A stretch of 9,996 nt of DNA, taken from contig JACQWU010000035.1 in assembly GCA_016209155.1 (NCBI GenBank), forward strand, positions 1 to 9,996. The letters run 5' to 3'. A program made the position numbers and the translations under genes. Of this stretch, positions 81 through 9,996 are shown piece after piece. This DNA comes from Candidatus Desantisiibacteriota bacterium (GTDB taxonomy: Bacteria > JACRDZ01). The notes under the pieces were generated by a model. It made no database searches and was not told where the DNA came from. It saw nothing but the letters and a program-made list of their open reading frames with translations. Numbering within the stretch: position 1 is the first letter of the stretch; the number at the start of each line of letters is the position of its first letter.

Positions 81-779
81 TTAATTCAATAAATTCTCTG
101 TTTTTCTGGCCTTAACTTTATTTCTGATAATAGGGATAAGTACAAAAAGCATTAATACTATAAAAGTAAATAGAATTTTTAATGATACAATGTCTTTTAA
201 CGACGAAATAGTATTTAATTGACTGCCCGCAGAAACATAGACCAATGAACCCGGGATAATACCAACAGATGTTGTCCATATAAAAGTGATAAACGGAATT
301 GTGGTTAATGCGGCTAAAATGTTGATAAGAAAAAACGGGAAAACAGGGAGTAATCTCATCATTAATAAATAACTGTAGCCATTTGTTTTAATTTCGTTAT
401 TAAATTTAGCCAGTTTATCTTGATAAGTTTTCTGCATCCACTCACCTAATATGTATCTGGTAAAAAGAAATGCCAATCCCGCGCCGGTTGTCGCACCGAA
501 GTTTACATAAATGGCTCCGGGTGTTATGCCAAATAAGTATCCTGCTGCCAGCGTGAGAATAGCTGCGCCGGGAATTGATAATGATACTACTAAAATATAT
601 ATGATTATATATAGAAAAACAGATGATAAATAATTTTGTTTTACAAAACTGTTCAAGTATTCTTTATTATTTTTAAGATTTTCAAATGTAAGATGATTCC
701 CAAATTTTGTGTTTTTGATTAGCAATACCGAAATTATTATTAAAATTAAAACAGTTATTTTTTTAAATGATGTTTTCAT
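81..779 (-). CDS. TVP38/TMEM64 (VTT domain, DedA-like) membrane protein
   Basis: Polytopic inner-membrane protein of 232 aa, a normal length for the TVP38/TMEM64 family. Hydrophobic segments lie near residues 8-22, 51-70, 72-90, 92-109, 137-158, 161-184 and 199-218. The VTT-domain signature is visible: a Gly-rich stretch around residues 71-102 (GAAILTLAAGYLFG, then GATTGAG), an FTR at 106-108, and the R142-LLPVFPF segment followed by a conserved Pro/Gly pair near 173-177. The family is related to DedA proteins and is linked to lipid scrambling or membrane homeostasis; the substrate is unknown here. It is the last gene of the operon: its ATG overlaps the TGA of the upstream flavoprotein gene (ATGA), which implies translational coupling. 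An AAGGAA sits about 17 nt upstream, rather far for a ribosome site, so coupling is likely to matter. TVP38 proteins are often found next to mercuric-reductase-like flavoproteins, which supports the pairing but does not give the function. Confidence 0.9.
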   Translation of the reverse strand: MKTSFKKITVLILIIISVLLIKNTKFGNHLTFENLKNNKEYLNSFVKQNYLSSVFLYIIIYILVVSLSIPGAAILTLAAGYLFGITPGAIYVNFGATTGAGLAFLFTRYILGEWMQKTYQDKLAKFNNEIKTNGYSYLLMMRLLPVFPFFLINILAALTTIPFITFIWTTSVGIIPGSLVYVSAGSQLNTISSLKDIVSLKILFTFIVLMLFVLIPIIRNKVKARKTENLLN

Positions 780-2251
780 TTGTTTATGTTTGGAAGTTCC
801 TTCTTTTTTGGCTTTTTACCAAACTCATAAAAATATTTTAATATTTTAATGAATAAATTATTTTGTAAAGCATCGATATAACATAATTTAGCTGATTGTT
901 TCAGTACGTCTGAATAGGAAGGATAAGCATGAATAACTGATTGAATTTTAGAAAAAGGAATTCCCAATGATTTTGCCAATTGGGCTTCATGGATTATTTC
1001 TCCCGCCCGTTCTCCCAGAATATGCACACCTACTAAATTTGATTTCCCGTCACAAATGAATTTCGCAATACCTTCGCCTGTCAAATCTATTTTTCCTCTG
1101 TCAATTTTATTATACTCTGTACAATAAATTTTTATTTTATCCCCGTATTTAAGCCTTGCTTCCTCTTCAGTCAATCCTGCATGCGTCAATTCCGGGTCTG
1201 TATAAGTGCACCATATTACATTTTTGTAATTTAAATCTTTTCTTATTGGGAGTAACATATTGGTTACAGCGGTTACTGCCTGATATTCTGCTATATGACT
1301 AAATTGGTAAGGACCAACCACATCTCCGCATGCATAAATATTAGGGGCTGTTGTTCTTAATCTGCTATTTGTTGTTATTCCTTTTTTTGTATATTGAATA
1401 CCTGCTTTTTCAAGAGCTAATCCCTCGACATTCGGAACCCTGCCGACAGCTACCAGAACAGCATCTGTAGAGATTTCATAATTTTGTTTTTTTTTATTTT
1501 CCGCTTTGAGTATTATTTTTCCATCCTTACCTGAAAATTTTAAAGCTGATGTATTTGTTAATAAATTTAATCCTTCTTTTTTTAGTATTTCCGAAAGCCG
1601 TTCCCCCAATTCTTTATCCTCACGGAAAAGTATTCTATCCGCTATTTCTATAATAGTCACATCTATCCCTAACCTGTTTAAAGCCTGGGCAAGTTCAATT
1701 CCTATCGGCCCTCCTCCCAGAATAATCATTGATTTTGGTAAAACTTCGAGATTAAAGAGTGTATCATTAATTAAATAAGGGATTTCGTTTATTCCATCGA
1801 TTAGCGGGACGAAGGCTCTCGAACCGGTAGAAATTATAAAATTTTTAGATGATAATATCTTCTCATCAAGTCTGATATTATGATCATCAACAAAAGAAGG
1901 TTCCCCAAAAAGAATATTTATTCCCATTTTTTCAAAACTTTCCGGTAAATGACCGGTATAAACTTTATTTATAATTGAATGAACAAAAGGTATAACATTT
2001 TTTGTATCAAATGATAACGGAGTTTTTAGATCTATCCCGAAATCTCCCGCATTTTTTAAAATATGCGCTATTTTGCCTGCTTTTATAAGCGCTTTGCTGG
2101 GAACGCATCCAAACCATGTGCACTGGCCGCCAATCTTATTTTTTTCAATTATGGCGGTTTTAGCTCCAAAACCGTTCGCTAATTTTGCGGAAACAAAACC
2201 ACCGGCACCACCCCCAACAACAATTAAATCATAATCATATTTTTTTTTCAT
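776..2251 (-). CDS. mercuric-reductase-like FAD/NAD(P) disulfide oxidoreductase
   Basis: Cytoplasmic class I pyridine nucleotide-disulfide oxidoreductase, 491 aa, in the dihydrolipoamide dehydrogenase/MerA superfamily. Visible parts: N-terminal FAD-binding GGGAGG (residues 13-18); redox-active pair C44-TWFG-C49 in GGQC...GCVPSKAL; central NAD(P)-binding GGGPIGIELA near 180; second FAD motif around IYACGDVVG; C-terminal dimerisation domain. It has no N-terminal heavy-metal domain and no C-terminal vicinal Cys pair, so it is not a canonical mercuric reductase. The usual HxHPTxxE catalytic motif reads H441-A-Y443-P-S-Y-S-D448: the second His is Tyr and the acidic residue is Asp, so the acid-base chemistry probably differs from lipoamide dehydrogenase. 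The start is supported by CAGGA upstream and by the ATGA overlap with the glycosyltransferase gene before it. The substrate is unknown; the operon suggests a disulfide or arsenic/thiol-linked reductant, which is an inference. Confidence 0.9.
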   Translation of the reverse strand: MKKKYDYDLIVVGGGAGGFVSAKLANGFGAKTAIIEKNKIGGQCTWFGCVPSKALIKAGKIAHILKNAGDFGIDLKTPLSFDTKNVIPFVHSIINKVYTGHLPESFEKMGINILFGEPSFVDDHNIRLDEKILSSKNFIISTGSRAFVPLIDGINEIPYLINDTLFNLEVLPKSMIILGGGPIGIELAQALNRLGIDVTIIEIADRILFREDKELGERLSEILKKEGLNLLTNTSALKFSGKDGKIILKAENKKKQNYEISTDAVLVAVGRVPNVEGLALEKAGIQYTKKGITTNSRLRTTAPNIYACGDVVGPYQFSHIAEYQAVTAVTNMLLPIRKDLNYKNVIWCTYTDPELTHAGLTEEEARLKYGDKIKIYCTEYNKIDRGKIDLTGEGIAKFICDGKSNLVGVHILGERAGEIIHEAQLAKSLGIPFSKIQSVIHAYPSYSDVLKQSAKLCYIDALQNNLFIKILKYFYEFGKKPKKKELPNINK

Positions 2252-2805
2252 TTAATATATTCCTGAAGATTGTGAAAACCGAAGATATATTTTGACAGGT
2301 AAGAATATGTGTTTAAATGATTAATTCCTGAGTACTTGTTTCTGGCATCAGGAACAAAAGTATTGGAATTGAAACCAAGCAGATAATATCCTCCATCGCT
2401 TGCCGGCCCTATTACAACATCATGATTATTTAAGAATAAAAATGCATTTTTAATAAATTTGCCGGGCAGATCGGGCAAATCGCTTCCGATAACAATAACT
2501 CGTTTAAATTTCAGGGAGAACGCTTTGATAAAACAATTTTTCATCCTACCCCCGAGATCTAATCCATTTTGCGGCATATACAAATATTTTCCACCCATCC
2601 AGTCTATAAATTTTTTTTTTGCATTCCCTGGATAGAAACAGATATATAATTTGATTTTAAGTTTATTTATAGTAGATAAAATATCCATGACAAAGTTTTT
2701 GTAAAGTTCAACTTTGTCTATTTTTTTAAATCCGGAGGAAAGTCTTGTTTTGATTTTACCATTTTCCGGATATTTGACGAATAAAAGCACGCAGCAATCA
2801 TTCAT
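2248..2805 (-). CDS. TIGR04282-type glycosyltransferase (arsenosugar biosynthesis-associated)
   Basis: Small GT-A-fold nucleotidyl/glycosyltransferase-like protein of the TIGR04282/DUF2064 group, named for its co-occurrence with ArsS-type radical SAM proteins. The N-terminal nucleotide-binding motif is clear (LLFVKYPENGKIKTRL, residues 7-22), followed by QNGLDLGGRM (79-88), GSDLPDL (107-113) carrying the metal-binding acidic residues, and GPASDGGYYLLGF (133-145). At 185 aa it is short for the family. After about residue 160 it lacks the usual W-S-T segment and the final D-x-D-T-x-x-D motif and ends in a divergent basic/aromatic tail. Translating the two alternative frames past that point gives early stops and no restored motif, so a simple frameshift is not apparent. 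AGAGGA lies about 7 nt before the ATG. Its stop overlaps the next start (ATGA). Probable role: sugar transfer in organoarsenical synthesis, inferred from the ArsS neighbour. Confidence 0.87.
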   Translation of the reverse strand: MNDCCVLLFVKYPENGKIKTRLSSGFKKIDKVELYKNFVMDILSTINKLKIKLYICFYPGNAKKKFIDWMGGKYLYMPQNGLDLGGRMKNCFIKAFSLKFKRVIVIGSDLPDLPGKFIKNAFLFLNNHDVVIGPASDGGYYLLGFNSNTFVPDARNKYSGINHLNTYSYLSKYIFGFHNLQEYIK

Positions 2806-2870: not shown

Positions 2871-3830
2871 CTATATTAGTGCGCCTATACAACTGGATCC
2901 TTCTCCTGCTGTGCAGGAATAACAATGCTCAGCGGTAATAATTTCATTTTTGTTATAAATAAAATCATCCATATTTTCTACTTCCATAATTTTCCCTATT
3001 TTATCTCTTATTGGAAGTCCTGCCGCCTGATTAAAGTCACAATTGTATAGAATTCCCTGCCAGTCAATATTGATTAAAGAACGGCACATAATATGAGGTA
3101 CAATCCGTGAATTAAAATTACTGGCAAGCAGTCTGATATATTGTTCCATTTTACCGTTTAATATAAGGTAATTTTTAAACCTGCCGAGAGGAGCGTTTGT
3201 TAATGTTAATAATTTGTTAAAGATAATCCCGTATTTTTTAAAAAGATTTTTTTTAAAATCTTTTTCCAGTTTTTTTTGAGGAGCAGGCAAAAATTCACCG
3301 GCGGGATTATACATAATATCAAGAGGTAAATCTTTTCCATAGCCAAGTGAGTTCAATTTTTTTAATGCCTTTATGCTTTTTTCGAATACACCATTTCCCC
3401 GCTGTTTATTTACATTTTTTTCTGTGTAACACGGCAGGGATGCTATCAGAGTAATCCTTTTTTCCCTATACCATTCGGGAAGCCGCTCCATCCCATTTTC
3501 ATAGAACACTGTAAGGTTTGTTCTAACCATAATTTCAGTGCAAACCCTTTCAGCGTATTCAATAAAAAGTCTGAACCCGGGATTAAGCTCAGGACACCCT
3601 CCTGTTACATCAAGAATAATTCCGGGATGTTTTTCCAAAAATAGTATGATTTTTTCCATAACATTAACACTCATTATATTGGAACCTCCCGGTTCTGCGT
3701 AGACATGGCAATGCCTGCATCGCTGATTACACGTATTACCAAGATTCACCTGTAATGTTTTTAGATTTGTAAATCTTATATAATCCGAATTAATGTCTTT
3801 TATTGTTTCTTTAAAATTACAATTCATCAT
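2871..3830 (-). CDS. arsS: ArsS-type arsenosugar biosynthesis radical SAM protein
   Basis: Radical SAM enzyme, 319 aa. The [4Fe-4S] cluster motif is C34-NQR-C38-RH-C41 (CX3CX2C) in NTCNQRCRHCHVYAEPGG, a sequence typical of the ArsS/TIGR04167 family. The SAM-binding TGGCPELNPGF segment follows. The C-terminal DUF3641-type domain carries CRSLINIDWQGILYNCDF and ends in C303-YS-C306-TAGEGSS-C314, the family's terminal Cys-rich tail. Some members of this family use selenocysteine there; here all positions are TGT cysteine codons and the gene ends at TAG just after the motif. The family is credited with adding a SAM-derived 5'-deoxyadenosyl group to methylated arsenic on the way to arsenosugars. 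Two tandem ATG codons are possible starts (3830 and 3827), and no strong ribosome site precedes either. It lies 41 nt after the hydrolase gene and is probably in the same transcript. No arsM methyltransferase is seen nearby. Confidence 0.93.
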   Translation of the reverse strand: MMNCNFKETIKDINSDYIRFTNLKTLQVNLGNTCNQRCRHCHVYAEPGGSNIMSVNVMEKIILFLEKHPGIILDVTGGCPELNPGFRLFIEYAERVCTEIMVRTNLTVFYENGMERLPEWYREKRITLIASLPCYTEKNVNKQRGNGVFEKSIKALKKLNSLGYGKDLPLDIMYNPAGEFLPAPQKKLEKDFKKNLFKKYGIIFNKLLTLTNAPLGRFKNYLILNGKMEQYIRLLASNFNSRIVPHIMCRSLINIDWQGILYNCDFNQAAGLPIRDKIGKIMEVENMDDFIYNKNEIITAEHCYSCTAGEGSSCIGALI

Positions 3831-3871: not shown

Positions 3872-4645
3872 TCACTTAAATATTTCTGCAAAAAATAATT
3901 TCATAGCTTCCCATGATCTTTTGTCAGCCTTTTCATTATAAGCCACCCCTTTTGAAGGGTCGTTTCCTGAGTCTGGATTTGTAAAACTGTGAACAGCGCC
4001 CCCGTAAATATAAACCTGCCAATCAGCATTCGATTTTCGCATCTCATCCTGAAATCCGGACATATGTTCCGGTTTTACACTCTTATCATCGCCGCCGTGT
4101 AGAACTAATACTTTTGCTTTAATTTCTTTTTTATCATAATTTGGAGCATCAAGACTTCCATGAAAGCTTACTACTCCCGATAATAATGCTCCGCCGCGAG
4201 CTAATTCAAGAACCGTTGTTCCTCCAAAGCAATAACCTATTGCCGCGATTTTATCAGTATCAGTGAGATTATGTTTTTTTAACACATCAAGTCCTGCATT
4301 AGCTCTGGCTCTCATCAATGCTCTATCGCTTCTATATATCCCGGCTAATGAACCTGCTTCCTTAAAATCCTTTGCTATTTTTCCTTTCCCGTACATATCA
4401 AGCGCAAAAGCTATATATCCCAGCCTCGCTATCTGTTCAGCCCGTTTACGGACATATTTATTATGCCCCCACCATTCATGCACAACCAGAACTCCCGGAC
4501 GTTTTCCTTTTACATCATCATCATACGCAAGATAACCTTCGAGCTCAGTATTGCCATGCTTGTAATCAACTACTTCAGTGCGGAGTTTAGCTGAAATATT
4601 GACAGACCAAAATAAAATCAACCAGACAATCAGCAGGTTTTTCAT
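3872..4645 (-). CDS. exported dienelactone hydrolase family protein
   Basis: Alpha/beta hydrolase of the dienelactone hydrolase (DLH) family. I place the start at the ATG at 4645 (257 aa), not at the in-frame ATG at 4660. A strong GGAAGGGA lies 5 nt before the inner ATG, and that start gives a clean signal peptide (MKNLLIVWLILFWSVNISA, cleavage near residue 19), so the product is probably periplasmic. In this numbering the triad is C139 in GYCFGG, D187 in HGGDDKSV and H219 in GAVHSF, with the oxyanion-region HEWWG near residue 56. The Cys nucleophile is typical of true DLH-type enzymes rather than Ser esterases. The substrate is not known. It follows a 44-aa ORF by 26 nt and precedes the radical SAM gene by 41 nt, so it is probably co-transcribed with both. 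The DNA appears somewhat richer in G+C than the genes to its left (not counted). Confidence 0.9.
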   Translation of the reverse strand: MKNLLIVWLILFWSVNISAKLRTEVVDYKHGNTELEGYLAYDDDVKGKRPGVLVVHEWWGHNKYVRKRAEQIARLGYIAFALDMYGKGKIAKDFKEAGSLAGIYRSDRALMRARANAGLDVLKKHNLTDTDKIAAIGYCFGGTTVLELARGGALLSGVVSFHGSLDAPNYDKKEIKAKVLVLHGGDDKSVKPEHMSGFQDEMRKSNADWQVYIYGGAVHSFTNPDSGNDPSKGVAYNEKADKRSWEAMKLFFAEIFK

Positions 4646-4671
4646 GTATATCCCTTCCATTATGATTTTAT

Positions 4672-4806
4672 CTATTTCATATTGATCGCATTTCTTTTTT
4701 CATAAAGATTATACGCAACCTCGCTGATTTTTTTATCCAATTGTGTTTTTGATAAATGATCCTTTGAAACTTTAGAATTTAAATCTAAACTTGTTTTTTT
4801 TGCCAT
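4672..4806 (-). CDS. 44-aa hypothetical protein at head of operon
   Basis: A 44-codon ORF with a textbook AAGGAG 8 nt before its ATG, located between promoter elements at 4849-4911 and the hydrolase gene. It begins MAKKTSLDLN and is lysine-rich, hydrophilic, without a signal peptide or Cys. The C-terminal part (KKISEVAYNLYEKR, residues 25-38) should form an amphipathic helix. It loosely resembles the start of DUF2934 proteins (I-x-x-x-AY-x-LYE-x-R), but it stops before the rest of that domain, so the relation is only a suggestion. The strong ribosome site and its position directly behind a recognisable promoter make it likely to be translated. It could be a small regulatory or accessory protein, or a leader peptide. 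It is too short to be called by usual ORF cut-offs. Confidence 0.65.
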   Translation of the reverse strand: MAKKTSLDLNSKVSKDHLSKTQLDKKISEVAYNLYEKRNAINMK

Positions 4807-4848: not shown

Positions 4849-4911
4849 ATTTTATAGTAAAATATAAAAATGTAAATTGGCTTGTACCGCCTTTTATTGA
4901 CTTTTTTACAC
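4849..4911 (-). promoter_or_regulatory. promoter with shared upstream box, copy B (44-aa ORF/hydrolase/arsS operon)
   Basis: On the minus strand, -35 TTTACA (4876-4871), a 16-nt spacer and -10 TAAAAT (4854-4849) lie upstream of the 44-aa ORF, with a predicted RNA start near 4842 and a leader of about 36 nt. The 35 nt upstream of the -35 (from 4911) align without gaps to the boxes before 6567 and 6814. 22 of the 41 positions from the start of the box to the end of the -35 are identical in all three copies. Half-site-like GTGTA and GCGGT are 21 nt apart, followed by the invariant GC just before the -35. Confidence 0.62.
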
Positions 4912-4920
4912 TATTTTTCA

Positions 4921-6567
4921 TTAAGATTTATCAAATAAATTCGCATCCCTGTAATTGATATAAGTCGCGTAGCTGCCCGAAAGGTTATAGGCATCGTATC
5001 CATTTTGCATCAATATTCTTACGGCATTATGCGCCCTTACACTGCTTTGACAAAAGACCGCTGTTTTTTTGTTTTTAGGAATTTCATTGATCCTTTCCCT
5101 GAGTTCGTCCAGCGGGATGTTTACGCTTCCGGGTACACTGCCTCTTTTAAATTCAGCGGGAGTTCGTACATCCAGCAGGAATTCTTCACCGGTTAGCCTG
5201 TCCCAGTGAGTAAATCCGGATAAACCGTTTACATGATTTTGCGCCGCCATTCCAATAAAATTTATTGCGTCTTTTACCGTCCCATAGGGTGGAGCGTAAG
5301 AGAATTCAGCCTCTGCGAGGGCGTTCATAGTAAGTCCATTTTTAATCGCAAGCGCGAAGATATCAGTTTTTTTATCTACTCCGTCTTTCCCGATTATCTG
5401 TGCACCCAGTAATTTCCCGCTCACAGGATCAAACAAGGTTTTAATCGACATCTGCGATGCTCCGGGATAATATGCCGCGTGATTGGTTGTATGGGTATAT
5501 ATTTTTTCATATTTTATCCCTGAAGCTTTGAGTATTTTCTCTGACAGGCCGCTCATCCCGGCGGTAAGAGAAAAGACATTAACGATCAAAGTCCCATAAG
5601 TCCCGTTATATGTATCATCGATTCCAAAAATATTATTTGCTACGACAAGCGCCTGTTTAGCAGCAGGCCCGGCAAGCGGAATATAATGATTCTGCCCTGT
5701 CAGAGGGTTCAGTGTTTCAACGGCATCGCCAATAGCATAAATGTCAGGGTTATTTGTCTGCATTCTGTTATTTACACTCACACCTGTTTTCCCGATATTA
5801 AGCCCCGCGTCTTTAAAGAGTTTTGTTTCCGGCATAACACCAATGGATATTATTATAATATCGCATGTTACTTTATCACCTGATTTTGTTTCAACAATAT
5901 ATCCGGAGCTTTTTTTAATAGCTGTAACCTCTCTGCTAAGAATAATATGTATCCCGCTTGACTCCAGTTCCCGGTGAAGAATAACCGCCATATCTTTATG
6001 AAACGCCGGCGTAACCTGGTCAAGCCTTTCTCTTAAAACAACATCAATATTTCTTAATTTAATATTCTCAGCCATCTCGACGCCTATGAACCCGCTTCCG
6101 ATAATAACAGCCTTTTTCACAGAACCTGAATCAAGCTTCGCTTTTAACCGGTCGATATCGGGTAAAGTGTGTATTGTATAAATATCTTCAAGATCAATAC
6201 CTTCAAACCCGGGTAAAACCGGTTTCGCGCCCGGAGAGATAATGAGTTTGTCGTATCTCTCAACATATTCCAGCCCTTTTTTAAGATCTTTTATACGGAT
6301 ATTTTTGTCTTTCGGGTTGATTGAAACAACTTCGTTATTTATCCTGACATCGATATTGAATCTCTTTGAAAAACTTGCCGGTGTTTGTAAAAGCAGGCTG
6401 TCCCGTTCTTTTATTATTCCTCCGGCGTAATAGGGCAGTCCGCAATTCGCAAAAGATATATTTTCACCCTTTTCAAACATAATTATCTCCGCCAGCTCAT
6501 CCAGCCGCCTGTATCGTGCTGCTGCCGCGGCTCCACCTGCAACTCCGCCGACTATTAGCAATTTCAT
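4921..6567 (-). CDS. CoA-disulfide/polysulfide reductase with C-terminal rhodanese domain (CoADR-RHD)
   Basis: Flavoprotein of 548 aa, the usual size for the CoADR-RHD family, which reduces CoA disulfide, CoA persulfide or polysulfide with NAD(P)H in the cytoplasm. N-terminal FAD-binding GGVAGGAAAA (residues 7-16) is followed by the single active cysteine C42 in SFANCGLPYY. The NAD(P)-binding GSGFIGVEMAE is at 157-167 and the second FAD motif IYAIGDAVE at 276-284. Tyrosines of the CoA-binding and catalytic region appear in HAAYYPGA (near 366) and YAPPYG (424-429). The rhodanese domain runs from about 455 to the end, with DVRTPAEF (466-473) and a sulfur-carrying C506 in the loop CQSSVR. AAGGAG sits 6 nt before the ATG. 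The gene is divergent from a DUF2892 gene; in E. coli YgaP a rhodanese and a similar membrane domain are fused, which suggests a shared sulfane-sulfur function. It is more G+C-rich than its neighbours by eye. Confidence 0.94.
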   Translation of the reverse strand: MKLLIVGGVAGGAAAAARYRRLDELAEIIMFEKGENISFANCGLPYYAGGIIKERDSLLLQTPASFSKRFNIDVRINNEVVSINPKDKNIRIKDLKKGLEYVERYDKLIISPGAKPVLPGFEGIDLEDIYTIHTLPDIDRLKAKLDSGSVKKAVIIGSGFIGVEMAENIKLRNIDVVLRERLDQVTPAFHKDMAVILHRELESSGIHIILSREVTAIKKSSGYIVETKSGDKVTCDIIIISIGVMPETKLFKDAGLNIGKTGVSVNNRMQTNNPDIYAIGDAVETLNPLTGQNHYIPLAGPAAKQALVVANNIFGIDDTYNGTYGTLIVNVFSLTAGMSGLSEKILKASGIKYEKIYTHTTNHAAYYPGASQMSIKTLFDPVSGKLLGAQIIGKDGVDKKTDIFALAIKNGLTMNALAEAEFSYAPPYGTVKDAINFIGMAAQNHVNGLSGFTHWDRLTGEEFLLDVRTPAEFKRGSVPGSVNIPLDELRERINEIPKNKKTAVFCQSSVRAHNAVRILMQNGYDAYNLSGSYATYINYRDANLFDKS

Positions 6568-6607
6568 AGGAATCTCCTTATAGTTTTTTTTAATTAACTT
6601 TTGTTAT

Positions 6608-6670
6608 AGAATACTAATTTTATAAAATTTGTAAATTAGCCGTTTCTACTTTTTTATGACTTTTCTCCAC
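6608..6670 (-). promoter_or_regulatory. promoter with shared upstream box, copy A (CoA-disulfide reductase gene)
   Basis: On the minus strand, -35 TTTACA (6635-6630), a 16-nt spacer and a weaker -10 TATTCT (6613-6608) precede the reductase gene, giving a leader of about 34 nt. The upstream box (6670-6636) starts GTGGAGAAAA, continues GTCATAAAAA and has a second half-site GTAGA 21 nt after the first. It matches the other two copies position for position. Confidence 0.6.
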
Positions 6671-6701
6671 CCTCCCTATTAATTTACAAAAAATTTTTAT
6701 A

Positions 6702-6764
6702 GTGGAAAATTATCATAAAAAAGTGGAGGTTGCATCTTTATATTTTTACGCAAAAGCGTAAAAT
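6702..6764 (+). promoter_or_regulatory. promoter with shared upstream box, copy C (DUF2892 operon)
   Basis: On the plus strand, -35 TTTATA (6737-6742), a 16-nt spacer and -10 TAAAAT (6759-6764) precede the DUF2892 gene, giving a leader of about 43 nt. The box begins GTGGAAAA at 6702, has TCATAAAAAAGTGGA at 6713-6727 (second GTGGA 21 nt after the first) and the invariant GC at 6732-6733. It faces copy A, so the two together look like a large imperfect inverted repeat (12-bp perfect arms 6648-6659 and 6713-6724). Confidence 0.6.
6744..6763. promoter_or_regulatory. palindromic operator candidate inside promoter C
   Basis: Perfect palindrome with 8-bp arms TTTTACGC and GCGTAAAA around an AAAA centre. 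It fills the spacer and overlaps the -10 of the DUF2892 promoter, the classical place for a repressor. The GC-containing arms stand out in AT-rich surroundings, and neither of the two sister promoters carries it. No T-run follows, so a terminator is unlikely. The cognate regulator is not identified. Confidence 0.5.
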
Positions 6765-6813: not shown

Positions 6814-7023
6814 ATGGAAAAGAATATGGGGATAGTTGATAGAAGTATACGAATAGTAACAGCTGTTTTTTTTAGCATTCTGATTTATACAAATCAGATA
6901 TACGGAACTGTTGCAATAATTTTAGGTGTTTTTGCCATTATATTTATTCTGACAAGCCTTATAGGGTGGTGTCCGCTATATAAACTTTTGGGAATATCTA
7001 CACTTAAAAAAAAGGAACAGTAA
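6814..7023 (+). CDS. DUF2892 (YgaP-type transmembrane domain) small membrane protein
   Basis: 69-aa inner-membrane protein with two hydrophobic helices (about residues 12-27 and 31-49) and the DUF2892 signature: an N-terminal NMGxxDRxIR segment (4-13) and a C-terminal GWCPLYKLLGIST (51-63) with C53. A purine-rich AAAGGGGG lies about 4 nt before the ATG, and the N-terminal residues match family starts. The same domain forms the membrane part of E. coli YgaP, where it is fused to a rhodanese. Here the nearest rhodanese is the C-terminal domain of the divergent reductase, so a role in sulfane-sulfur or thiol handling at the membrane is a reasonable inference. It is the first gene of a plus-strand operon, with 16 nt to the next gene. 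Confidence 0.9.
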   Translation: MEKNMGIVDRSIRIVTAVFFSILIYTNQIYGTVAIILGVFAIIFILTSLIGWCPLYKLLGISTLKKKEQ

Positions 7024-7039
7024 AATTGGAAAGATAATA

Positions 7040-8356
7040 ATGAAAAAAATAAATTTTGTAGTTATTGCCTTTATAATTACATCAAAAATAGTTTATGCGC
7101 AGCACGAACATCATTTAACATTTAAAGAAGACACAACAAGTATAAATGTGGAAACAAATATGGATATGTCACATCCATACTTGCTAAGCCTGCCAATGAA
7201 TAGAAATGGCTCAGGTACATCATGGATACCTGATGAATCCCCTATGTATGGTTATATGCTGCATTTAAATAAATGGTTATTAATGTTCCATGGCAGTATA
7301 TTTTTAAGATATACCGGAACAGACATTACCAGAGAAGGTTCAAAAGGTGCTGCTAAATGGGATGCTCCTAACTGGTTTATGGGTATGGCTCAAAAACAAA
7401 TTAAAGAAAACGGATTGTTAAAATTCAGTCTGATGATGTCTCTTGAAAAATTAACTGAATCAGGCAGGGGTTATCCTCTATTATTCCAGTCCGGTGAAAC
7501 ATGGAACGGGGAAAGACTCGTTGACAGGCAGCATCCGCACGATTTGTTTTCCGAGTTAAGCGGCGCTTATACACAAAGAATTAATAAAAATATAGATGTA
7601 ATTTGCTATTTCGGTTATCCGGGTGAGCCGGCATTGGGCCCGACAGCATTTATGCACAGGGCCTCAAGCTCAAATAATCCGGATGCACCGCTATCGCATC
7701 ACTGGCAGGATGCATCGCACATTACATTTGGAACAGGAACACTTGGAGTTAGATATAAAATGTTGAAAATTGAAGGTTCTATTTTTAATGGCAGCGAACC
7801 TGATGAGAATAGGTTTGATTTTGATAAAGCTAAATTTAATTCATTAAGCTACAGATTATCATTAAATCCGACTAAAAATTTTGCAATGCAATTTTCTCAG
7901 GGATTTCTGAAAAGTCCTGAAGCTCTTGAACCTGATATTAATGTTATAAGGACAACAGCTTCTGTAATTCATAGTTATGTTTTTTCCTCTGTGAAAAATA
8001 TTAACACAACTACATCATGGGGAATGAATGATAAAGAATCCGGAAATATAGAGCACTCATTTTTACTGGAAAGTGATTTGAAAATAAACAAATTAAATGT
8101 CTATGAAAGATACGAATTTGTTCAAAAAGACAGCGAGGAACTCAATCTGGCAGAATTTGATACTGAAAAAAAATTCATTATCACTTCTTTAACTATTGGA
8201 GCAAATTATAAAGTTTTTAATATTGGGAATACTGATTTTTCGCTTGGAATTCAGGGTAATATATATTTTACACCTTCTGAGCTTCGTACAATTTATGGAA
8301 ATCGTCCTTTATCAGCTCAAGTGTATTTAAAAATAAATCCGTCATTAATGAATTAA
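7040..8356 (+). CDS. unnamed family: exported, probably outer-membrane beta-barrel protein
   Basis: Protein of 438 aa with a signal peptide (residues 1-20, cleavage after VYA) and a mature N-terminus rich in His and Met (QHEHH at 21-25, NMDMSH at 40-45). The rest has no long hydrophobic helix and shows alternating polar/aromatic strand patterns, ending in YGNRPLSAQVYLKINPS (419-435), as expected of an outer-membrane barrel. Conserved-looking landmarks are DRQHPHDLF (162-170), YFGYPGEPALGPTAFMHR (190-207) and LSHHWQDASHITFG (218-231), dense in His. I do not recognise a named function. The His/Met content could mean metal contact, and similar proteins may occur near metal-resistance genes, but that is memory rather than proof. 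GGAAAG precedes the ATG by 6 nt. It lies between the DUF2892 gene and the cytochrome lipoprotein gene and is probably co-transcribed with both. Confidence 0.75.
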   Translation: MKKINFVVIAFIITSKIVYAQHEHHLTFKEDTTSINVETNMDMSHPYLLSLPMNRNGSGTSWIPDESPMYGYMLHLNKWLLMFHGSIFLRYTGTDITREGSKGAAKWDAPNWFMGMAQKQIKENGLLKFSLMMSLEKLTESGRGYPLLFQSGETWNGERLVDRQHPHDLFSELSGAYTQRINKNIDVICYFGYPGEPALGPTAFMHRASSSNNPDAPLSHHWQDASHITFGTGTLGVRYKMLKIEGSIFNGSEPDENRFDFDKAKFNSLSYRLSLNPTKNFAMQFSQGFLKSPEALEPDINVIRTTASVIHSYVFSSVKNINTTTSWGMNDKESGNIEHSFLLESDLKINKLNVYERYEFVQKDSEELNLAEFDTEKKFIITSLTIGANYKVFNIGNTDFSLGIQGNIYFTPSELRTIYGNRPLSAQVYLKINPSLMN

Positions 8357-8393: not shown

Positions 8394-9386
8394 ATGAAAA
8401 AAATAAAATCTTTTTTGTATCTTATATATCTTATTTTGTGTATTACAGCAATAAGCTGTGGTACAGGCAAAAATAAAAATAAAAATTCAAATGCATATGG
8501 AAATAAAACAAATTCAGCGCCTATTGCTGATGCGGGTCCTGATAAAACAGTAATAGTAAATACACTTGTAATTCTTGATGGAAGTAAAAGTTCGGACCCG
8601 GAGGGAGCTTCTCTTACTTATAAATGGTCATTGTCTGTCCCTGATCAAAGTCAGGCTGTTTTATCCGATAGTACTTCTGTAAAACCAAAATTTACACCTG
8701 AAGCAGCCGGAACATATATTGCTAAACTTATTGTTAATGATGGAAATTCTGGAAGCGCTCCTGATACTGTTATTATAACCGCAAAAATAAAATCATCTGC
8801 AAATTCAGCACCTATTGCAAGCGCAGGAGATAATATAACCGTAGCAGTTAATACTATAGCTACTCTTGATGGAAGTAAAAGTTCTGATCCGGACGGAGAT
8901 TCTCTTACCTATAAATGGTCATTATCTGTTCCTGATCAAAGTCAAACTGTTTTAACTGAAAGTACTTTAGTAAAAACGGAATTTACACCTGATATTAACG
9001 GAATATACATTGCTACGCTTATTGTTAATGACGGGCTAATTAATAGTAATCCTGACAGTATAACTATTAATGCTGCTGCTATTTCATTTTCGAAAGATGT
9101 TCAAACTATATTCAACAATAATTGCATAGGATGTCATTCACAGGGAAGCTTAGCTTCTTTTTTTAGGTTAACATCAGAAGTCTCATACTCGAATCTGGTA
9201 AATGTTCAGGCTGAAAAATCATCAGGTATTAGAGTTATCCCTTTTAATTCAAGTAACAGCATATTAATTTTAAGAATAAGCGGAAACAGTGTTGGAGCGC
9301 AAATGCCAAAAGGCGGATCTCCATTAAATAGTCAAAATCAGAATTTAATAAAAAAATGGATAGACGAAGGCGCCAAAAACAATTAA
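8394..9386 (+). CDS. lipoprotein with two PKD-like repeats and a c-type cytochrome domain
   Basis: 330-aa lipoprotein. A type II signal peptide ends at C22 (lipobox AIS-C), with Gly rather than Asp at +2. After a Lys/Asn-rich linker come two PKD-like Ig-fold repeats, about residues 40-130 and 137-227, both containing LDGSKSSDP, SLTYKWSLSVPDQSQ and LIVNDG. From about 230 there is a cytochrome domain with one haem-c site C244-IG-C247-H248 and a likely distal Met ligand M304 in AQMPKGG, then LNSQNQNLIKKWIDEGA. This layout is like the PSCyt1-type domain found at the end of many environmental-bacterial proteins. Likely role: an envelope-anchored electron carrier or haem-dependent sensor on a stalk; partner unknown. 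AAGGAG lies 11 nt before the ATG. The gene ends 10 nt from a convergent histidine kinase gene. Confidence 0.88.
   Translation: MKKIKSFLYLIYLILCITAISCGTGKNKNKNSNAYGNKTNSAPIADAGPDKTVIVNTLVILDGSKSSDPEGASLTYKWSLSVPDQSQAVLSDSTSVKPKFTPEAAGTYIAKLIVNDGNSGSAPDTVIITAKIKSSANSAPIASAGDNITVAVNTIATLDGSKSSDPDGDSLTYKWSLSVPDQSQTVLTESTLVKTEFTPDINGIYIATLIVNDGLINSNPDSITINAAAISFSKDVQTIFNNNCIGCHSQGSLASFFRLTSEVSYSNLVNVQAEKSSGIRVIPFNSSNSILILRISGNSVGAQMPKGGSPLNSQNQNLIKKWIDEGAKNN
8511..9089 (+). repeat. intragenic tandem duplication (about 291-nt unit) encoding PKD-like repeats
   Basis: Two in-frame units beginning at 8511 and 8802 (NSAPIA in each), a period of 97 codons. They share long identical protein runs and near-identical DNA stretches such as CTTGATGGAAGTAAAAGTTC, so the duplication looks fairly recent rather than an ancient domain pair. 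Confidence 0.8.
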
Positions 9387-9396
9387 AAATAAGGTT

Positions 9397-9996
9397 TTAG
9401 CAGCTTTTTCTTTTTGGTAAAGTTACTGAGACTTCTGTTCCTTTGCCCTGTTCACTTTCTATATTTATTGAACCTGCATGAAGATCTATTATCTGTCTGC
9501 ATACAGAAAGTCCAAGTCCTGTTCCTTTGGATTTGGTGGAAAAAAACGGGTCAAATACTTTGCCCAAATTTTCTTTGCTAATTCCAGTTCCATTATCTTT
9601 AATACAGACTTTCAACGATTTGTTATTATCATCAAAAGTTTTTATTTCTATCAATCCATCAGGTTGAAAAACAGAGTCATAAGCATTGTTTAATAGATTA
9701 ATAAATACCTCTTTTATCTGAAAAGGGTCTGCTTCAATAAAAGTATCTTTGACAGATTCAAATTCTTTTTTTATTGGAATATTTTTCCCGGGTTCTTTTT
9801 TAAGATCACTAACACATTCATTAAGAATTTTATAGAAATTAATATTCTTATAATTTGGGGGTCTTATGTTTGAGTAAAATAAAAGGTTATTTATTATTTG
9901 TTCACTTTCGAGTATTTTATTTTCGATATTATTTATGGAACGTTCCACAGATGGATCTTGAATTTTTCTTTTGATATTGTAAACTGCCATTTGTAT
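9397..9996 (-). CDS. sensor histidine kinase, C-terminal part (5' end outside window)
   Basis: C-terminal transmitter of a two-component histidine kinase. The ATG at 9990 is probably not the start: the frame stays open to the window edge (codons CAA and ATA precede it). The first visible residues (AVYNIKRKI...) read like the segment just after an H-box (HE-x-RNPLxxI), so the phosphorylated His lies beyond the edge. Counting from that Met, the second dimerisation helix is at about 15-41 (ending LLFYSN), the N-box NLLNNAYDSV at 98-107, the G1 box DNGTGIS at 132-138, the F-box FDPFF at 146-150 and the G2 box GTGLGLS at 156-162, so the ATPase domain is complete. The response regulator and sensory domain are not visible. 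It is convergent with the cytochrome lipoprotein gene, with only 10 nt between the stop codons and no clear terminator there. Confidence 0.9.
   Translation of the reverse strand: MQMAVYNIKRKIQDPSVERSINNIENKILESEQIINNLLFYSNIRPPNYKNINFYKILNECVSDLKKEPGKNIPIKKEFESVKDTFIEADPFQIKEVFINLLNNAYDSVFQPDGLIEIKTFDDNNKSLKVCIKDNGTGISKENLGKVFDPFFSTKSKGTGLGLSVCRQIIDLHAGSINIESEQGKGTEVSVTLPKRKSC

Follow-up and report, generated by a model that had tools for sequence, protein, structure and literature searches.

A 63-nt promoter module shared by arsenosugar, CoA-disulfide reductase-like and YgaP-like genes, and a candidate AraC-type response regulator for a wider redox and stress-like regulon

The window, i.e., the whole stretch of 9,996 nt that was analysed (contig JACQWU010000035.1 of a Candidatus Desantisiibacteriota bacterium), carries three transcription units, each preceded by one copy of a 63-nt module (boxes A, B and C). 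The unit behind box A lies on the minus strand and begins with a short ORF (4672..4806, 44 aa) that has no Pfam match by itself and is like the start of a 98-aa DUF2934-like ORF found at the same place in a relative of the same phylum (G003); it is apparently shortened compared with the latter, and the window copy may be degenerate. Next come genes encoding a dienelactone hydrolase-family protein (3872..4660; PF01738, 2.7e-50), whose orthologues sit behind the same box in G003 (contig C8) and in a second relative, G001 (contig C18), the arsenosugar biosynthesis radical SAM protein ArsS (2871..3830; TIGR04167, 395.9 bits for a cut-off of 300), an arsenosugar biosynthesis glycosyltransferase (2248..2805; TIGR04282, 136 bits for a cut-off of 134), a pyridine nucleotide-disulfide oxidoreductase related to MerA and lipoamide dehydrogenase (776..2251; below the equivalog cut-offs) and a VTT-domain membrane protein (81..779; domain match). 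Box B precedes a gene on the same strand (4921..6567) for a CoA-disulfide reductase-like FAD enzyme with a C-terminal rhodanese domain (TIGR03385, 467 bits, below the cut-off of 578.8). The third unit, a putative outer-membrane/cytochrome-like operon on the plus strand behind box C, encodes a YgaP-like transmembrane protein (6814..7023; PF11127, 8e-21), a 438-aa protein with an N-terminal hydrophobic segment (7040..8356), which is predicted to be exported and has no family match, and a PKD-domain lipoprotein-like protein with a C-terminal CxxCH motif (8394..9386; sequence and domain match). ArsS, the rhodanese-containing CoA-disulfide reductase-like enzyme and the YgaP-type membrane protein are all confirmed by family or domain matches. 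The window ends within the C-terminal part of a histidine kinase (9397-9996, minus strand) that is cut by the contig end and resembles receiver-PAS-kinase proteins which G003 and G001 encode within their regulon clusters.

The three segments (4911-4849 and 6670-6608 on the minus strand, 6702-6764 on the plus strand) align without any gap, with pairwise identities of 35/63, 37/63 and 38/63; 28 of the 63 columns are identical in all three, including 22 of the first 41. Box A (4849..4911, -; E 1.5e-12 with R1, a sequence-only model made from ten sites) comprises GTGTA (4911-4907), GTCA (4901-4898), GCGG (4890-4887) and GCCAAT (4881-4876), followed by a -35 TTTACA (4876-4871) and a -10 TAAAAT (4854-4849). 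The corresponding parts of box B (6608..6670, -; R1 E 8.6e-13) are GTGGA (6670-6666), GTCA (6660-6657), GTAG (6649-6646), GCTAAT (6640-6635), TTTACA (6635-6630) and TATTCT (6613-6608), and those of box C (6702..6764, +; R1 E 3e-11) are GTGGA (6702-6706), ATCA (6712-6715), GTGG (6723-6726), GCATCT (6732-6737), TTTATA (6737-6742) and TAAAAT (6759-6764). Boxes B and C form divergent promoters 31 bp apart. Such divergent pairs are also frequent elsewhere, for example in G003 (C8 12443-/12444+ and 15754-/15784+; C3 69999-/70019+) and G001 (C18 8156-/8170+). An independent weight matrix was built from 62 sites of other genomes, the window and its two close relatives being excluded. The three best window positions for this matrix are precisely 4911- (42.7), 6670- (41.7) and 6702+ (19.6), the fourth reaching only -1.4; even box C, the weakest, exceeds the maximum found over 300 first-order Markov windows (12.8). 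The gap-free alignment first described thus holds on realignment as well as by this ranking.

Examination of 55 sites gave the logo GTGGAAAAAAGTCAATAAAAAGYRGAWTYAGCCAATTTAYATWTTT, with boxes at positions 1-5, 11-14, 22-26 and 31-36 and then a TATAAT-like hexamer, so that the element can be written as GTGGAAAAAAGTCAATAAAAAGYRGAWTYAGCCAATTTAYAT plus a TATAAT hexamer at a constant distance. The four boxes (GTGG, GTCA, GYRG and GCCA) are spaced by about one helical turn and constitute two direct repeats 20-21 bp apart, each made of two boxes, that abut the -35. This is the layout of AraC/XylS-type sites (two repeats about 21 bp apart, two boxes each, abutting the -35). When the best -10 match was located in 160 sites, it began at position 58 or 59 in 91 of them, every other start accounting for at most 9. 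The -35 hexamer is poorly conserved outside the phylum of the window. Most of the information is located upstream of the -35, unlike in a generic sigma70 promoter, where it is found in the -35 and -10 hexamers only. The GTGGA-like half-sites initially noted at positions 1 and 22 are therefore genuine, those at 11 (GTCA) and 31 (GCCAAT) having been missed, and the logo supports the proposal of a direct-repeat activator site lying on one DNA face and adjoining the -35 of a sigma70-type promoter before the three units.

The genome to which the window belongs (3.08 Mb in 352 contigs, 79% complete) contains further copies: a DNA search with box A found two and pattern searches added others, all located about 90-250 nt upstream of genes and aligning without gaps with the window sites. 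A first pattern allowing three mismatches was too noisy overall (151 matches versus 138 for the reversed control), but the best of these matches pointed to the true consensus. Scanning with R1 gave ten matches below E 1e-7 and two more at 1.8e-6 and 0.002, followed by noise. The element thus precedes about 12 genes rather than hundreds of unrelated ones, indicating a regulon and not a generic promoter. The first genes behind these sites encode a CMD/AhpD-like protein, a cyclopropane-fatty-acid synthase (CMAS), a rubredoxin, an APS kinase, a porin-like protein and unassigned proteins, and one site precedes two ORFs, the first ferritin-like and the second OsmC-like (the OsmC-like, porin-like and short ferritin-like assignments being made by eye). 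Three other genomes of the phylum were compared. In G003 and in G001, which belongs to another family, the element is found before 14-30 genes, whereas the scan of G002 yielded no site. The orthologous ArsS operon carries the box in the same place in both motif-bearing relatives (G003 C8 24081; G001 C18 8156). Their other targets encode desulfoferrodoxin (superoxide reductase), Hsp20, ferritin, a phosphoribosyltransferase, a flavodiiron protein, cytochromes, receiver-domain proteins and Ku, with a LigD-like gene behind that of Ku. A 48-kb contig of G003 (C22) harbours about ten boxes together with Ku, the LigD-like gene, superoxide reductase, cytochromes and several sensor kinases, and resembles a stress island.

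The element is not restricted to this phylum. An exact pattern, which matches only 12 of the 55 known sites and hence retrieves a minority of sites in named genomes, was searched in 257 Gb of one-genome-per-species data. It matched 52 stretches for about 1-3 expected by chance, mostly from Candidatus Omnitrophota and Elusimicrobia, the others coming from Auribacter, Schekmanbacteria, Ratteibacteria and unnamed bacteria, with two evident chance matches (Proteus and Oceanirhabdus). In the full sites of these stretches, the four boxes are kept and the -10 is mostly kept. Besides the phylum of the window, the element is therefore present in Omnitrophota, Elusimicrobiota, Auribacterota, Schekmanbacteria and Ratteibacteria; none was found in the viral contigs searched. 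A strong box was also detected outside the main phyla, in Planctomycetales bacterium Bin_37_1_1 (L160), whose genome lacks the regulator described below; this box could be on a mis-binned contig.

Among 132 first genes located behind boxes, those encoding a receiver domain are the largest single class (33/132), and a type II/IV secretion ATPase domain is encoded by seven. The next classes carry desulfoferrodoxin, DUF2934, DLH, Hsp20, CMD, ferritin and rubredoxin domains; a Fe/Mn superoxide dismutase and a ribosome-hibernation-like protein (S30AE and cold-shock domains) are single cases. In one genome (G036), a receiver-ATPase fusion is encoded immediately behind the regulator. In Elusimicrobiota (e.g., L155:5705-7720, minus strand, and L215), a box lies directly behind the regulator gene and before a gene for a receiver domain fused to a type II/IV secretion (PilB-like) ATPase. 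Many of the targets so listed are redox or stress genes. From their nature we infer a redox and general-stress regulon that would also feed signalling; that the signal is a stress is a guess drawn from the target genes alone. Of the initial proposal that one factor serves the three units of the window, the shared predicted activator site stands, but a local or arsenic- and persulfide-specific regulon is not supported: the sites are distributed genome-wide and in other phyla, and their targets appear rich in redox and stress genes and in response regulators.

No regulator had been named for the module. A well-supported candidate, on the basis of co-occurrence and proximity, is a response regulator encoded within the regulon clusters, about 244 aa long and combining a receiver with an AraC-type HTH domain (Response_reg and HTH_18). 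It is encoded by one full-length copy in the genome of the window (C163:1927-2661), in G003 (C22:31638-32369) and in G001 (C94:9194-9961), all three bearing the motif, and is absent from the motif-less G002. The AraC domain is recognized by PF12833 (HTH_18; 1.2e-21 and 6.6e-25) and both HTH motifs are conserved in aligned homologues. The receiver has the residues involved in phosphorylation (acidic cluster, Asp, Thr and Lys), the consensus VDDD, LD, TG and EKP being found in at least 85% of homologues. In many loci, the gene overlaps or abuts a PAS/sensor-kinase-like gene; the next gene in G001 encodes a protein with PAS, HisKA and HATPase_c domains, and that in G003 is judged from its sequence to encode a PAS histidine kinase, while none is adjacent in the genome of the window. 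In the latter, no box lies directly upstream of the regulator gene, the nearest being 1.2 kb upstream, before the rubredoxin gene. The family reaches no NCBIfam equivalog cut-off.

Among 37 genomes found through the motif alone, 32 encode this regulator (E 1e-106 to 1e-66), nearly always as a single copy, as against only 8% of unselected genomes drawn evenly from Omnitrophota and Elusimicrobiota; the two genomes with evident chance matches lack it. In the Omnitrophota sample (n=145), 7 genomes have both regulator and motif, 4 the regulator only, 3 the motif only and 131 neither (Fisher p=1.6e-7); the counts for Elusimicrobiota (n=149) are 9, 3, 1 and 136 (p=2.8e-11). Once genomes previously known from the motif are left aside, the values are 1.4e-4 and 6.6e-7, respectively; all these p-values overstate the evidence, since they treat phylogenetically related genomes as independent. 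Some sites of model R2 stem from the sampled genomes, an overlap that the reduced counts take care of. In all 16 double-positive genomes, a box is found no more than about 6 kb from the regulator gene, and often at less than 150 bp (combined p ~7e-24, genomes being taken as independent). The association is not perfect. In five motif-bearing genomes, all drafts, the regulator was not detected, and motif-only drafts yielded no full-length regulator down to E 1e-12. Conversely, some regulator-bearing genomes (G087, G257 and G126) have weak or no boxes according to the model; a closer look revealed weak boxes in four of the seven regulator-only genomes, and a matrix scan found a box 21 bp behind the regulator gene of G309 (L257).

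These data have to be weighed against other explanations of the module. The box might be bound by a different regulator, the AraC-type response regulator only travelling along or being itself a target. The frequency of receiver-domain proteins among first genes (about a quarter), which makes regulators common targets, and the five motif-bearing genomes devoid of a detectable copy speak for this possibility. Nevertheless, inspection of neighbourhoods by eye revealed no other recurrent DNA-binding protein beside the boxes, the geometry of four boxes in direct repeats is that predicted for an AraC domain with two HTH motifs, and the box is downstream of the regulator gene in many genomes and upstream in others, so that the regulator is not simply a target. 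Control by another protein therefore appears unlikely, though it is the most serious of the alternatives.

The other alternatives concern the nature of the element itself. Fixed spacing over 63 nt and conservation across phyla are also typical of promoters of alternative sigma factors, and the poorly conserved -35 could be counted in favour of such a factor. However, the conserved bases extend from about -70 to -30, past the reach of a sigma factor, with a period of 20-21 bp and a standard TATAAT-like -10. An alternative sigma factor was rejected because of the extension to about -70 and is very improbable. The three window sites also looked like targets of a CRP/FNR-type dimer centred near -61, as GTG (1-3) and TCA (12-14) are spaced like TGTGA-N6-TCACA around a centre near -62. 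The 55-site logo led to the rejection of a palindromic GTGA-N6-TCAC site and makes this reading extremely improbable: the motif is non-palindromic (GTGGA on the left, GTCAA on the right), its spacing departs from the CRP rule by one base, and conservation is just as high in the second repeat (22-36). Finally, all three window promoters are A-rich and might be alike by chance, an explanation whose probability is practically negligible, being refuted by the matrix from other genomes, the 12 clear sites in the genome of the window, and the excess of exact matches in 257 Gb, nearly all of them in a few candidate phyla.

The reading that we consider clearly the most likely, from the arrangement and conservation of the element and its co-occurrence with and proximity to the regulator gene, is that the 63-nt module is an activator-dependent promoter whose upstream 42 bp would bind one regulator of the receiver plus AraC/XylS type, within a wider redox and general-stress regulon. 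The three promoters of the window would thus probably be part of a cross-phylum network in which a two-component response regulator switches on stress-protection genes together. The following scheme can be drawn. A histidine kinase, often encoded by an adjacent gene, would phosphorylate the regulator, leading two monomers to sit side by side on the two repeats, each reading two neighbouring boxes with its two HTH motifs. The bound regulator would then recruit RNA polymerase at the weak -35. Joint activation in the window would concern the ArsS operon, the CoA-disulfide reductase gene and the YgaP/outer-membrane operon, the last two being divergent, within a broader redox and general-stress regulon that would also feed further two-component proteins. 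More tentatively, this could be a general-stress two-component system with its own 42-bp box, shared by five or more phyla, most of them uncultured (Omnitrophota, Elusimicrobiota, Auribacterota, Schekmanbacteria and that of the window), in which an AraC-type regulator might take the role played by alternative sigma factors in well-studied bacteria. Arsenosugar and persulfide genes would be under what looks like general redox or stress control. Very little work has addressed how genes are regulated in Omnitrophota, Elusimicrobiota and neighbouring candidate phyla. With a 42-bp box that can be searched for and a candidate regulator, co-regulated genes can be listed in any genome of these groups, a common role in stress or redox processes can be proposed for proteins of unknown function, and one protein-DNA pair becomes available for bench tests.

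Neither this family of regulators nor its box and regulon seem to have been described, as no NCBIfam equivalog cut-off is reached and a search of open-licence papers found none on such a regulon or box; their parts, an AraC-type response regulator and a XylS-like promoter plan, are of known kinds. XylS sites consist of two 15-bp direct repeats, in each of which 6 bp lie between a box A and a box B (PMC5481539). As in the XylS-dependent Pm promoter and at AraC sites, the element has a pair of direct repeats next to the -35, and each repeat contains a 5' box A that lies about one helical turn from a 3' box B; 5-6 bp separate the two boxes here, versus 6 bp in XylS sites. XylS and AraC have, like the candidate, a C-terminal domain with two HTH motifs belonging to the same Pfam family. 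However, they sense small molecules and control one or a few operons, whereas the candidate has a receiver domain and would control a multi-operon redox and stress-like regulon, and the box sequences differ (GYRG/GYCA versus TGCA/GGTA). Regulators of the YesN/XydR type likewise combine a receiver with a C-terminal AraC-type HTH and are usually encoded beside a histidine kinase gene. One of them, XydR of Clostridium cellulolyticum, is an AraC-type response regulator of 532 aa with a long middle part that controls hemicellulase genes (PMC3572039). The candidate is much shorter (about 244 aa), and its box precedes redox, repair and signalling genes instead of hemicellulase genes. In mycobacteria, the dormancy regulon is governed by DosR/DevR, a response regulator that switches on Hsp20, phosphoribosyltransferase and redox genes. 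DosR belongs to the LuxR/NarL type and its box is palindromic, so that the two systems are alike in the kinds of their targets (Hsp20, phosphoribosyltransferase and redox proteins) and differ in both regulator family and box.
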